64,000 nt of DNA from Roseimicrobium sp. ORNL1 (lineage in GTDB: Bacteria > Verrucomicrobiota > Verrucomicrobiia > Verrucomicrobiales > Verrucomicrobiaceae): positions 2,604,001 to 2,668,000 of the forward strand of contig NZ_CP049143.1 in NCBI RefSeq assembly GCF_011044495.1, in the 5' to 3' direction. Position 1 is the stretch's first letter; every line of letters starts with the position of its first letter. Under the pieces are notes generated by a model, which made no database searches, was not told the origin of the DNA, and saw only the letters and a list, made by a program, of their open reading frames with translations. The position numbers and the translations under genes are program-made. Below, one piece after another: positions 50,409 through 59,598 of the stretch.

Positions 50409-53400
50409 ATGCTTCCTGAAGTATTCATCAAACACTGGGCCAAGGCCGAAGCCAATGAGCGGGCGAATTCCCAAGCCTTTCTCATCGGCCTGACCCAGTT
50501 GCTAGGCGTGCCGTCTCCTTCCAATTCCCACGCAGACGGCTACAGCTTCGAGTACCCCGTCAAAGTGCCAGGCACCAGCAATACGAACTACATCGATCTC
50601 TACAAGCGTTCTCACTTTGTCCTGGAGTCAAAGCAGTACACCGCAAAGAAAGAGGAGCAGTCCATGCTCCAGCTCGCCGCGCTCAAGGCCGGAGTCGTGG
50701 AGGAGAAGAAGAAATCAGGACCGCTGCGTGGTACCGGCGCTTGGGATGACGCCATGGTCCGTGCCAAGGGGCAGGCCGAGCGCTACGTGCGATCCCTCCC
50801 AGCGGAAGAGCCGAATCCCCCCTTCCTCCTCGTGTGTGACGTGGGGCACACCATTGAGGTGTATGCGGACTTCACCCAGAATGGCAAGGCCTACCTCCCA
50901 TTCCCCGATCCGCGCACCTTCCGCATCAAGCTCAAGGACCTCGCGAATGACAAGATTCGCGAACGTCTCCACCTCATCTGGACGAATCCCACCTCGCTGG
51001 ATCCTTCCAAGGTTTCAGCGGATGTCACCCGCGAGATCGCCGGTTATCTGGCGGAGCTCGCGAAGTCCCTGGAGCAGGCGGGGCATGAGCCCGAGGTCGT
51101 TGCCCAGTTCCTCACACGTTGTCTCTTTTGCATGTTCGCGGAGGACGTGGGCTTGCTGCCTGAGGGCTCCTTCACCGAGTTGCTCGCCTCCGTCCCCGGC
51201 GATGGTACCGGCTTTGAGGATCTCCTTGGAACTCTCTTCCGTGAAATGAACCACGGCACGGGAAAGAGCATCTCCGTCGTCCTGCGGAAGAAGCTCCTCC
51301 GCTTCAATGGCGGCCTCTTCGCTGACCACACCGTGCTTCCCGTGAATGGCATGCAGCTGGGCTTGCTCAAGCAGGCGGCGAAGACGAACTGGCGCAATGT
51401 CGAGCCCGCCATCTTCGGCACACTGCTGGAGCGTGCCCTCGTGCCGGAGGAGCGTCATGCACTCGGAGCTCACTTCACTCCGCGCGCCTATGTCGAGCGC
51501 CTCGTGCTGCCCACCGTCATGGAGCCCCTCCGCGAGGAGTGGGAGAGCATCCGCGTCGCCGCCATCACCCTGGCGAACAAGGATGACATGAAGGGCGCTC
51601 GCAAGCTGGTGAATGCCTTCCATGACAAGCTCTGCGAAGTCACCGTGCTTGATCCCGCCTGCGGCAGTGGAAACTTCCTCTACGTCGCGCTGGAGCATAT
51701 GAAGCGCCTGGAGGGTGAAGTCATCGATCTCGCCACCGACCTCGGCGTGGATCAGCGGCTGGATCTCACCACCCACACCGTGGACCCGCATCAGTTCCTC
51801 GGCATCGAGCTGAACCCCCGCGCCGCCGCCATCGCCGAACTCGTCCTTTGGATTGGCTACCTTCAGTGGCACTTCCGCACCCGCGGCCAGACTCTCCCGG
51901 AAGAGCCCGTGCTGAAGACCTTCAAGAACATCGAATGCCGCGACGCCGTGCTGGAGTACGATGGTGAACCTGAACCCGCACGGGATGAGCACGGCCACAT
52001 CCGCACCGTGTGGGATCGGCGGAGCTATAAGACTGACTTGGTGACGAATCGTGATGTGCCGGATGAGTCCAAGCGTGTGCCACTGTTGACGTATAAGAAT
52101 CCACGCCCAGCGAAGTGGCCAAACGCAAACTTCATTGTGGGGAATCCGCCCTTTCTTGGAAAAGTGAAATTGCGGGAGGATCTTGGCGATGGATATGCTG
52201 AAACGCTCCGTGCTGCTTACCCTCCAGTACCCGAGTCAGCCGACTTTGTGCTCTATTGGTGGCACAAAGCAGCCACTTTGGTTCGTACTGCCAAGGCGCG
52301 GCGCTTTGGCCTCATTACAACCAATAGCTTGCGTCAGACGTTCGCGCGACGCGTAGTTCAGATGCATCTGGATGCAGAATTGCCGTTGTCATTGGCATTC
52401 GCAGTCCCGGATCACCCTTGGGTAGACACTGTTGATGGTGCTGCAGTTCGCATCGCAATGTCCGTCGGGGTAGCGGGTAGCTCCCCCGGAAGTCTGCTAT
52501 CCGTGATTGATGAAGTGCCTCAACCAGATGGATCCTCGATTGTCACGTTTGAGGGACGCCGTGGTCAGATTAAGGCTGATCTATCGGTTGGCGCTAACGT
52601 GTCAGCTGCCATTCCTCTCAAGGCGAATGCTCTGTTAGCCAGTACTGGTCTGATTCTTGGGGGACGCGGATTCGTTATCACTTCAGGTGAGGCAAAGGAA
52701 CTTAAGAGGGACTGTCCCTCGGCGAGTAAACTCGTATTTCCATTGAAAAATGGAGACGACATAAATGGCCTGGACAGAAATGCCTATGTGATCGACACAA
52801 ACGGATGAAGTGAAGAGGAGCTTAAGGCAGAAGTGCCGCAAATTTATCAAAGGCTGCTCACGACCGTCTATCCAGAACGGCAGCAAAACAACGACCCAAA
52901 GCTCAGGAAGTATTGGTGGCTATTCAGACGCAGTAATGAGCAGGTGCGTGGCGCTATCCGAAATCTTCCCAGGTTCATAGTGACTGTTGAAACAGCAAAG
53001 CATCGAATCTTTAGCTTCGTAGAAGCGCTCACCAAACCTGAGCACAAGCTTGTCGTCATCGGTAGCGATGATGCGCATGTGTTGGGCGTCGTATCCAGCA
53101 ACATTCACGTGAAGTGGGCACTCGCTCAAGGGGCTTTATTGGAAGATCGCCCTGTATATCCTAAGTCGGAATGCTTCGACCCATTCCCATTCCCCCTCTG
53201 CGGCGAAGAGGAAAAGCACCGGATCCGCACTCTCGCCGAGGAACTCGACGCCCACCGCAAACGTGCTCAGGAAAAGCACCGTCTCTCCCTCACCAGCATG
53301 TACAACGTGCTGGAGAAGCTCCGTGCCGGCGAGACTCTCACCGAGAAAGACAAGGGCGTCCACGATCGCGGCCTCATCTCCATCCTTAAGCAGCTCCACG

Positions 53401-53849
53401 ATGACCTTGATGCCGCCGTCTTCGCCGCCTACGGCTGGCCCACCACCTTGACCGATGCAGAAATTCTCGAACGCCTCGTCGCTCTGAACGCCCAGCGCGC
53501 TGCCGAGGAAAAACGCGGCATCATTCACTGGCTCCGCCCCGAATACCAAAACCCCACCGGCCAGTCCGCCGCCCAAGGCACCCTCAACCTGCCCCCAAAA
53601 AAGTCCGCCACCAAGAAGGCGCAGGGCTCAGCCGCTCCTGCCCCCAAAGGCAAAATCCCTTGGCCAAAATCCATCGCCGAACGCATCCGCGTTACCGAGC
53701 AAGCTCTTCATGCCGCAGGACACGCCGTCACCGCGGGGGAACTTGCCCAACGTTTTTCACGTGCCCAACCGAAGGACGTTCAGGAAATTCTAGAAAGCCT
53801 TGTGGCCTTTGGACGAGGGCACCGGAATGGAGACACCTTCAGCGTGTAG
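50409..53849 (+). pseudogene. Fused restriction-methyltransferase gene split by an in-frame TGA
   Basis: Two frames in the same phase (50409-52808 and on to 53849) form one gene of about 1,146 codons with a single TGA at 52806-52808. Part 1 has an N-terminal nuclease-like site (NYIDLYKRSHFVLESKQY, Asp and Glu-x-Lys), methyltransferase motif I DPACGSGNFLYVAL and motif IV NFIVGNPPF. After the TGA the reading continues SEEELKAEVPQIYQRL, where relatives of this family carry an uninterrupted GLSEEE-like stretch. The rest supplies the target-recognition region and a C-terminal winged-helix-like end. This resembles type IIL (MmeI/YeeA-type) enzymes. It is either a recent nonsense mutant, a read-through product or a sequencing error. 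Confidence 0.8.
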
Positions 53850-57738: not shown

Positions 57739-57963
57739 GCCCACGAGTGTGCGATGGGCTCTGCATGTGAGCGTCCCTCTACACCAAGGGACGGTAGGGA
57801 TGCGCTCCTGCGCGTCCGTAGATAGCGGGCGGAGGTGGAGGGAGATGCAGCGTCGCGAGGCCGTTTCGTGCTCTAGCTCCGCACCGCCACCGCCCATCTA
57901 AAGAGGGACGCGCAGGAGCGCATCCCTACCGCATCTTTGGTGGAAGGACGTTTGCCTTGGAAG
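57739..57963. repeat. Inverted-repeat element R4, copy 3
   Basis: It shares arms and core with 32301-32535 and 32569-32795: GGTAGGGATGCGCTCCTGCG and CGCAGGAGCGCATCCCTACC. Confidence 0.8.
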
Positions 57964-58208: not shown

Positions 58209-58937
58209 TCAATACCTCCTTGCCCGGTCCAGCGGCCACACGCAGCTCTCCACTCTTCCTCGCAGGGCCTTCAGCGGGACGGTGCCCCAGAAGCGGCTGT
58301 CGTAGCTATTGTGGGTATTGTCTCCCAGCACATACACCTCGCCGGGGGGCACGGTGAAGGTATCGCGCGAGGTGCGGAGGCGTGCTGAGGGGAAGTCCAG
58401 GGTCACATAGGCGCGCGCTTCCAGCTCCGGCGCGGGGACGCCATTCACCAGCAGCTTCTCATCCACGATCGAGATGGTCTCACCTGGCAGTCCCACCACC
58501 CGTTGCAGGAAGTACCCTGGCTGGTCATCACGTGTTTCGATGGCCGGCACATCTCCCGTCCAGAGCGTCACAATCTCCCCGCGTGCAGGCACGGTATTCC
58601 CCCGGTAGGCGCGGAGGTTCACATACACCCGGTCACCTGGCTTCACCTCCGGATCCATCCCTCCCGTGGGCACCGCAAAAATCCTCGACCCAATCCCCAC
58701 CGGCACCACCGTCATGAGTAGCCACACGGGAAGCACCACGCAGAGCAGCAGCAGCAGGATGCTCAAGCCCCACGTCCGCTTGCGCCCGTGCCCCATTTGC
58801 TTGCCACCACGAAGCGGAACCTTCTCCCCACCCGCACCTGGCACCGGAGGCGGCAGCGCGGGCGGTCCTGGTGATGGTGACGACGGCGACAACGAAGACG
58901 AAAACGAAGACGCCGGTCTCGAATCTGAATCATTCAT
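58209..58937 (-). CDS. Signal peptidase I homologue lacking catalytic residues
   Basis: This 242 aa protein has a cytoplasmic Ser/Pro-rich start and one membrane segment (LSILLLLLCVVLPVWLL). The S26 fold is clear: VPTGGMDPEVKPGDRVYVN (box B), YFLQRVVGLPGETI (box D), and GDNTHNSYDSRFWG (box E). The catalytic Ser that normally precedes Met in box B is Gly, and the Lys of the usual K-R-x-x-G-L-P-G box D is Gln. Both changes together predict an inactive pseudopeptidase. Confidence 0.8.
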   Translation of the reverse strand: MNDSDSRPASSFSSSLSPSSPSPGPPALPPPVPGAGGEKVPLRGGKQMGHGRKRTWGLSILLLLLCVVLPVWLLMTVVPVGIGSRIFAVPTGGMDPEVKPGDRVYVNLRAYRGNTVPARGEIVTLWTGDVPAIETRDDQPGYFLQRVVGLPGETISIVDEKLLVNGVPAPELEARAYVTLDFPSARLRTSRDTFTVPPGEVYVLGDNTHNSYDSRFWGTVPLKALRGRVESCVWPLDRARRY

Positions 58938-59086: not shown

Positions 59087-59144
59087 GGTTGGCGCGTCTC
59101 GTGACTCCGCTCGCAGTCCGCGCCATGAAGCAATCTCATCACCG

Positions 59145-59355
59145 ACCACCTTGCGCGCAGCGCCTTGGAGTGCGTGTGCGTAGCACCGCTTTGGGGTGCG
59201 ACTCAAATAATCCGATTCATCTTTTATCCACCCCAGATTCTCAAGCAGCAGCCTCGCCCGATTCGTGGCTTTGGAGGTAGGGGAGATGGTGAAGCTCTGG
59301 AGACGCTTCAAAGCGGTGCTCCGCACACGCACTCCAAGGCGCTGCGCGCCAGGTT
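59145..59355. repeat. Inverted-repeat element R2
   Basis: Left arm 59145-59194 and inverse right arm 59309-59355, of the GCGCAGC/GCTGCGC variant. A related single arm is at 59472-59522. Confidence 0.75.
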
Positions 59356-59471
59356 GTGAGTGGCGGAGTGGTTTCCCATGGTGAGATGAGGTCATTTCAC
59401 GAGACGAATCGGTTTTGAGAACTGTCTCGTGACACCAACGCGCATGCTCGCGCAGCGAGGCTCCGGGCCAT

Positions 59472-59522
59472 GCCACCTTGCGCGAAGCGCTTTGGAGTGC
59501 GTGTGCGTAGCACCGCCTTGGG
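59472..59522. repeat. R2, single arm
   Basis: It carries CCACCTTGCGCGAAGCGCTT and TAGCACCGCCTTGGGG. Confidence 0.65.
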
Positions 59523-59598
59523 GTATGGCTCAATCAATCCGAATACGTTGCTTATCCACCCCAGACTCTCCTTCAACAGTGGTGGAGTCTGAACGCTG

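Follow-up and report, generated by a model that had tools for sequence, protein, structure and literature searches.

A membrane-anchored signal peptidase I homolog without the catalytic serine and lysine in Roseimicrobium sp. ORNL1

Results and Discussion

The gene and its surroundings

The window, i.e. the whole 64,000-nucleotide stretch of DNA that was analyzed, carries on its minus strand a gene (Table 1) whose product is a membrane-anchored homolog of type I signal peptidase (SPase I, family S26). Its profile scores are far above chance and exceed the curated cut-offs, with 105.7 bits for PF10502 Peptidase_S26 over residues 70-234 (Pfam; cut-off 22.9) and 101.5 bits for TIGR02227 signal peptidase I (NCBIfam; cut-off 47), which places the protein in the S26 family. 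A Ser/Pro-rich N-terminus is followed by one membrane helix (residues 56-83) and then by the S26 domain. The first 47 residues are Ser/Pro-rich and mostly of low pLDDT in the structural model described below, so Met48 may be the true start. The domain and the membrane helix are complete from either start, since residues 49-242 alone score 106.7 bits in the profile scan.

Table 1. Features of the signal peptidase homolog gene in the window
Feature	Window position	Strand	Basis or remark
Dyad-less signal peptidase I homolog gene	58209-58937	minus	ORF, ATG start, 242 aa
N-terminal membrane helix, residues 56-83	58689-58772	minus	predicted model helix and hydrophobic sequence
Codon 93 GGG (Gly) at the E. 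coli Ser90 position, box B VPTGGMDPEV	58659-58661	minus	phmmer and MAFFT alignments
Codon 145 CAA (Gln) at the E. coli Lys145 position, box D FLQRVVGLPG	58503-58505	minus	phmmer and MAFFT alignments
Box E GDNTHNSYDSRFWG, residues 205-218, kept; 13/14 identical in the G001 ortholog	58284-58325	minus	alignments
Alternative start codon Met48	58794-58796	minus	would give 195 aa

Four neighbors were scanned, an L,D-transpeptidase, a rhodanese, a Gly-zipper-like protein (below the cut-off) and an ORF without a Pfam match, and no pilus or sortase gene was found among them. Upstream of the gene (window 59140-59579) lie a 54-nt inverted repeat pair (91%) and a 70-nt direct pair (89%), and downstream of it (57792-57931) a perfect 26-nt inverted repeat pair. 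Farther away, at 50409-53849 on the plus strand, a Type IIG restriction-modification gene is interrupted by a single in-frame stop (52806-52808); its pieces match PADLOC profile PDLC03627 with 1019 and 405 bits over profile positions 4-789 and 801-1133.

Both dyad residues are replaced in a predicted SPase I fold

A sequence-only reading of this DNA had described a signal peptidase homolog with Gly for the box-B Ser and Gln for the box-D Lys, with box E kept, and the alignments bear out each of these points exactly. By phmmer, E. coli IPSGSMMPTL aligns to VPTGGMDPEV, so that Ser90 corresponds to Gly93, and E. coli YIKRAVGLPG aligns to FLQRVVGLPG, so that Lys145 corresponds to Gln145; the dyad columns are the same in a 66-row MAFFT alignment. 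The window protein thus has neither the Ser nucleophile nor the Lys general base of an active type I signal peptidase, and from the missing dyad we infer that it has lost its activity.

The fold was said to be well kept in spite of the missing dyad, and here the PF10502 match, the alignment, an AlphaFold model and fold matches in the PDB agree. The model (m580fe021db36) has a mean pLDDT of 76.9, with 105 of the 242 residues at 90 or above and values below 50 at residues 178-184 and 210-214, the second stretch being inside box E. When the PDB was searched with this model, the first 26 rows were all signal peptidase I or SipA entries, e.g. 1t7d (E 1.5e-7) and SipA 4n31 (E 1.9e-7; TM 0.74 by target length and 0.46 by query length). 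By this predicted, not solved, structure the window protein has the SPase I fold.

The genome also encodes a LepB with both dyad residues

The sequence-only reading had suggested looking for an active paralog, and one that looks active was found. Scanning the genome (7.96 Mb, a single contig) with PF10502 gave five matches. One is below the cut-off; the four above it are the window gene itself, a LepB matched in two pieces, and a kinase with a weak score. The LepB, a 424-aa frame about 1.2 Mb from the window gene, carries FQIPTGSMQPTL and HYIKRLAGVPGD; with Ser and Lys in place in its PTGSM and YIKR motifs it appears active. With LepB/SPase I, the bacterial type I signal peptidase, which we take to be MEROPS S26A, the window protein has in common the profiles PF10502 and TIGR02227, the predicted fold, the N-terminal membrane anchor, box E, the counterparts of Arg146, Asp280 and Arg282 and most cleft side chains. 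It differs in the replacements of Ser90 and Lys145, and it is a short form, without the large insert found after box B in the LepB of the same genome.

An intact LepB in the same genome would also fit a protein that regulates it, as a dominant-negative partner or a substrate-holding decoy rather than an assembly factor, and a cleft common to the two could compete for the same signal peptides. On the other hand, the two genes are far apart, and among the matches listed 49 of the at least 62 family genomes with a match have a single one, so most family genomes manage without such a pair. Regulation of LepB is therefore regarded as unlikely. In two of the single-match genomes (G007 and G212) the match is of the accessory kind, i.e. 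sorted apart from LepB (see below), and the presence of accessory S26 genes in the family is patchy.

The weak kinase match is a separate gene (L007:2587-4902, minus strand; genome C1, approximately 7743587-7745902) that encodes a transmembrane Ser/Thr kinase (PF00069, 183 bits) with an S26-like domain at its C-terminus (PF10502, 24.9 bits; cut-off 22.9). Judged by eye, this domain also is without the dyad and has Ala and Gly there. The copy in genome G001, the congener introduced below, is 73% identical, and distant copies of the domain (G009, G016, G010 and G048) are by eye without the Lys, some with the Ser. A kinase HRD motif was found in the G000, G001, G009 and G010 frames and was not found in the G016 and G048 frames.

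A syntenic ortholog also lacks the dyad

A protein search for relatives of the window gene took in 57 genomes, of which one other (G001) was labeled as the same genus. Its ortholog is 58% identical to the window protein and reads SVNTM and FLERAVG, with Thr and Glu at the dyad positions. Both genes are oriented divergently from an L,D-transpeptidase gene and a rhodanese gene that correspond in the two genomes, and the same Gly-zipper-like gene is found near both. Synteny was seen only within the genus; accessory copies of other clades adjoin an MFS transporter, ligA, gcvP or ilvBN, and neither at the window locus nor in the other clades did the neighboring genes give a clue to function or a partner.

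Since the syntenic ortholog is also without both residues, the change is not a private mutation, the finding that was to have refuted the sequence-only reading; together with the one-contig genome, the ortholog rules out a sequencing error as well. The proposed check on conservation of the changes in relatives gave a mixed outcome: the double loss is common to both species, but the replacements differ (Gly/Gln versus Thr/Glu).

Over 222 codons the two genes differ with a dN of 0.405 and a dS of 1.31, the latter near saturation, giving a dN/dS of about 0.31 (NG86), and the window gene thus appears to be maintained. For residues 200-242 the values are 0.15 and 1.23, and the ratio is about 0.12 (NG86). 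Change is unevenly spread: all six of residues 88-93 round the lost Ser differ between the two species, box B going from VPTGG to ASVNT in the ortholog, while in box E residue 209 alone differs. The pN/pS of the window gene is 0.51 as compared with 0.32, 0.24 and 0.17 for three neighbors; it evolves faster than all three, yet it is held. With a pN/pS above that of each neighbor tested, selection may be relaxed on part of the protein.

These figures bear on whether the gene is a decaying duplicate that has lost its role and drifts in both species without a selected function. The different residues at both dyad positions, the fast change of box B, the patchy presence in the family and the raised pN/pS would all be expected from decay. 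Against it, the reading frame is intact in both species, which are about 1.3 apart at synonymous sites, the dN/dS is low over the whole gene and lower still toward the C-terminus, and Arg146 and the box E residues are invariant in dyad-less homologs (see below). We hence consider decay improbable.

Accessory S26 homologs across Verrucomicrobiota

Homologs were collected at the order level (288 genomes) and at the phylum level (387 genomes), two sets that overlap. The alignment comprised 34 accessory rows, 22 LepB rows (18 from the G genomes and four titled Oligosphaeraceae, Lentisphaeria, Spartobacteria and Chthoniobacterales) and 10 outgroup LepB rows. Left out of the accessory counts were a fragment without box B (G096) and a frame without box B (G472, L189), and left out of the counts were also two near-copies of the G132 lipobox form (L094), a LepB fragment (G131, L096), G592 (S/M) and G475 (S/K), where the letters give the residues at the Ser and Lys positions.

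The accessory rows, which come from among the matches listed and were found with profiles (A1 and A3) built mainly from eroded members, so that their proportions are not a census, comprise 9 without both residues, 12 without the Ser only, 7 without the Lys only and 6 with both. In contrast, S/K is present in 22 of 22 LepB rows and in 9 of 10 outgroup LepB rows, the remaining one being a cyanobacterial MAG with S/Q. In an outside control (one pattern, among the matches listed), 80 of 85 S26 ORFs at 80 loci had S/K, and the other five were one each of G/K, S/Q, C/K, S/L and no box B. In the nine dyad-less rows the Ser position holds Gly, Ala, Thr or Ile and the Lys position Gln, Met, Glu, Asn or Phe.

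Accessory and LepB rows were sorted partly with the motifs already in view, a concern that is met, for these rows, by a maximum-likelihood tree confirmed to have been built without the two dyad columns, in which a single starred clade (100/98) unites the 22 LepB rows and takes in no accessory row. The G001 ortholog and the window gene pair with support 100/100. The best tree requires no fewer than 6 changes of the Ser label and 8 of the Lys label (7 without the cyanobacterial S/Q row), these being the fewest on one tree, with loss and gain not told apart. The deep backbone is poorly resolved, and one S/K row (G200) groups with x/K and x/x rows in a starred clade.

The two residues seem to have been lost in different orders. 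At a ligA-linked locus in two genomes one copy is S/Q and the other G/Q, the Lys thus being gone in both and the Ser in one, whereas the three genomes with MFS-linked copies (G032, G101 and G131; the adjoining MFS genes were scanned in G101 and G131) have in these copies lost the Ser and kept the Lys.

The cleft is largely kept, and a substitute for the dyad was not found

The cleft was examined in alignment columns which we take to correspond to the pocket positions of the E. coli enzyme. The counterparts of Met91, Arg146, the box D Pro, Gly272, Asp273, Ser278, Asp280, Ser281 and Arg282 (E. coli numbers) are present in all nine dyad-less rows, and from Arg146 and the box E residues in this list comes the invariance that speaks against decay. 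Positions Ile86, Leu95, Ile101 and Tyr143 are non-polar or aromatic in all nine. Others are looser: Phe84 (F in five rows, Y in two, M and D in one each), Pro87 (P in five, V in two, S and R in one each), Val132 (V in three, I and A in two each, T and L in one each) and Ile144 (I in three, L and V in two each, T and A in one each).

With so much of the site in place, the protein might still be a peptidase that cuts a few specialized substrates with other residues, e.g. Thr91 and a different base. Fold and box E are kept, Thr91, which aligns with E. coli Ser88, stands two residues ahead of the lost Ser, and 7 of the 34 accessory rows keep the Ser with another residue at the Lys position. However, across the nine dyad-less rows the Ser88 position varies among Thr, Ser, Val, Ile and Asn, with Val in the ortholog, and no substitute polar residue, acid, base or nucleophile was found that is common to these nine rows and absent from LepB. 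No candidate for alternative catalytic residues thus emerged, and a still-active enzyme appears very unlikely.

A separate pattern concerns the accessory rows that have the Ser without the Lys. In 6 of 7 of them the Ser278 counterpart is Ala; every other row of the alignment, the cyanobacterial S/Q row among them, has Ser there. It looks as if this residue, which is near the lost Lys, had changed in step with it.

Known dyad-less homologs and a proposed role

Dyad-less homologs of SPase I are already known in Gram-positive bacteria. According to the excerpted text of PMC4049620, SipA of Streptococcus pyogenes has Asp for the Ser and Gly for the Lys and showed no detectable peptidase activity; its cleft is preserved and was occupied by a peptide in the crystal, pilus polymerization requires the protein, and it is encoded in Gram-positive pilus gene clusters. 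An excerpt of PMC12984324 likewise presents SipA as a dyad-less SPase homolog. Staphylococcus aureus SpsA, as described in part of PMC12445088, is a second SPase I homolog without two conserved catalytic residues, beside the active SpsB. In openly licensed PMC papers we found no dyad-less SPase homolog described in Verrucomicrobiota.

The window protein has in common with SipA (PDB 4n31 and 4k8w) the SPase I fold, the replacement of both dyad residues and a kept cleft, the last judged from residues of which some positions are loose; by sequence it matches 4n31 with E 3.2e-5. It differs in having Gly/Gln instead of Asp/Gly, in coming from a presumably diderm member of Verrucomicrobiaceae and not a Gram-positive bacterium, and in having, among the four neighbors scanned, no pilus or sortase gene like those that surround SipA. 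With SpsA, as far as the excerpt describes it, it has in common being a second, dyad-less homolog beside an active enzyme; the two are from different phyla and are likened by description, not by sequence.

We consider it most likely, with a probability of roughly 0.58 and largely by analogy with SipA, that the gene encodes a maintained, non-cleaving pseudo-peptidase, most likely a peptide-binding assembly factor or chaperone. The protein would be a single-pass SPase I fold anchored in the inner membrane and presumably facing the periplasm, without cleavage, and housekeeping cleavage of signal peptides would be left to the separate LepB. The surviving cleft would, as in SipA, hold an extended peptide, either the c-region of a signal peptide or the tail of an exported client, and the protein would act on it as assembly factor or chaperone; it is the kept cleft that suggests peptide binding. 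The pseudoenzyme first proposed for this gene finds support in the kept fold without the dyad, the presence of LepB and a loss common to the ortholog, and loses some in that the particular replacements are not conserved. The shift of box B from VPTGG to ASVNT would be odd if one specific peptide were bound in both species. A pN/pS above that of the three neighbors and the low model confidence in part of box E also led us to weigh the assembly-factor or chaperone reading slightly lower, and regulation of LepB, decay and unusual catalysis carry less weight than it does.

A broader view, which we regard as tentative and rather doubtful, is that in Verrucomicrobiota the SPase fold was converted more than once from scissors to a reader. 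Additional S26 copies (membrane-anchored, lipobox-bearing or kinase-fused) would have lost Ser, Lys or both on several branches and would now be extracytoplasmic domains that bind or sense peptides. If so, the window gene would stand as one example with the dyad fully lost, and its genome would hold another in the domain on the transmembrane Ser/Thr kinase. Repeated loss of Ser and Lys in a diderm lineage, in varying order and with LepB conserved alongside, would offer a natural series from protease to binding protein, and the window protein a tractable case for the roles of the SPase fold without cutting. The dyad erosion of accessory S26 proteins was surveyed within Verrucomicrobiota and need not be special to this phylum.

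Other S26 forms among the matches

In four accessory homologs a lipobox-like N-terminus (LGSC, FVSC, LLAC and ITSC, by eye) replaces the membrane anchor; their dyad positions read S/M (L087:3956-4513), S/M (L088:443-967), I/M (L044:497-1021) and S/S (L095:2181-2729). Genome G132 (L094 and L095) has three apparently near-identical copies of an S26 homolog with S/S, two of them within about 10 kb and among other repeated ORFs.

Single replacements were also seen in the outgroup and the outside control. The cyanobacterial MAG signal peptidase (L097:2-493) keeps the Ser and has Gln for the Lys, and a further homolog (L123:3839-4624) has Cys at the Ser position with the Lys kept. The G/K ORF of the outside control seems to be the G212 record itself. 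A Candidatus Zymogenaceae MAG has a tandem of three S26 ORFs (L107:3884-5870), the third of which carries S/L.
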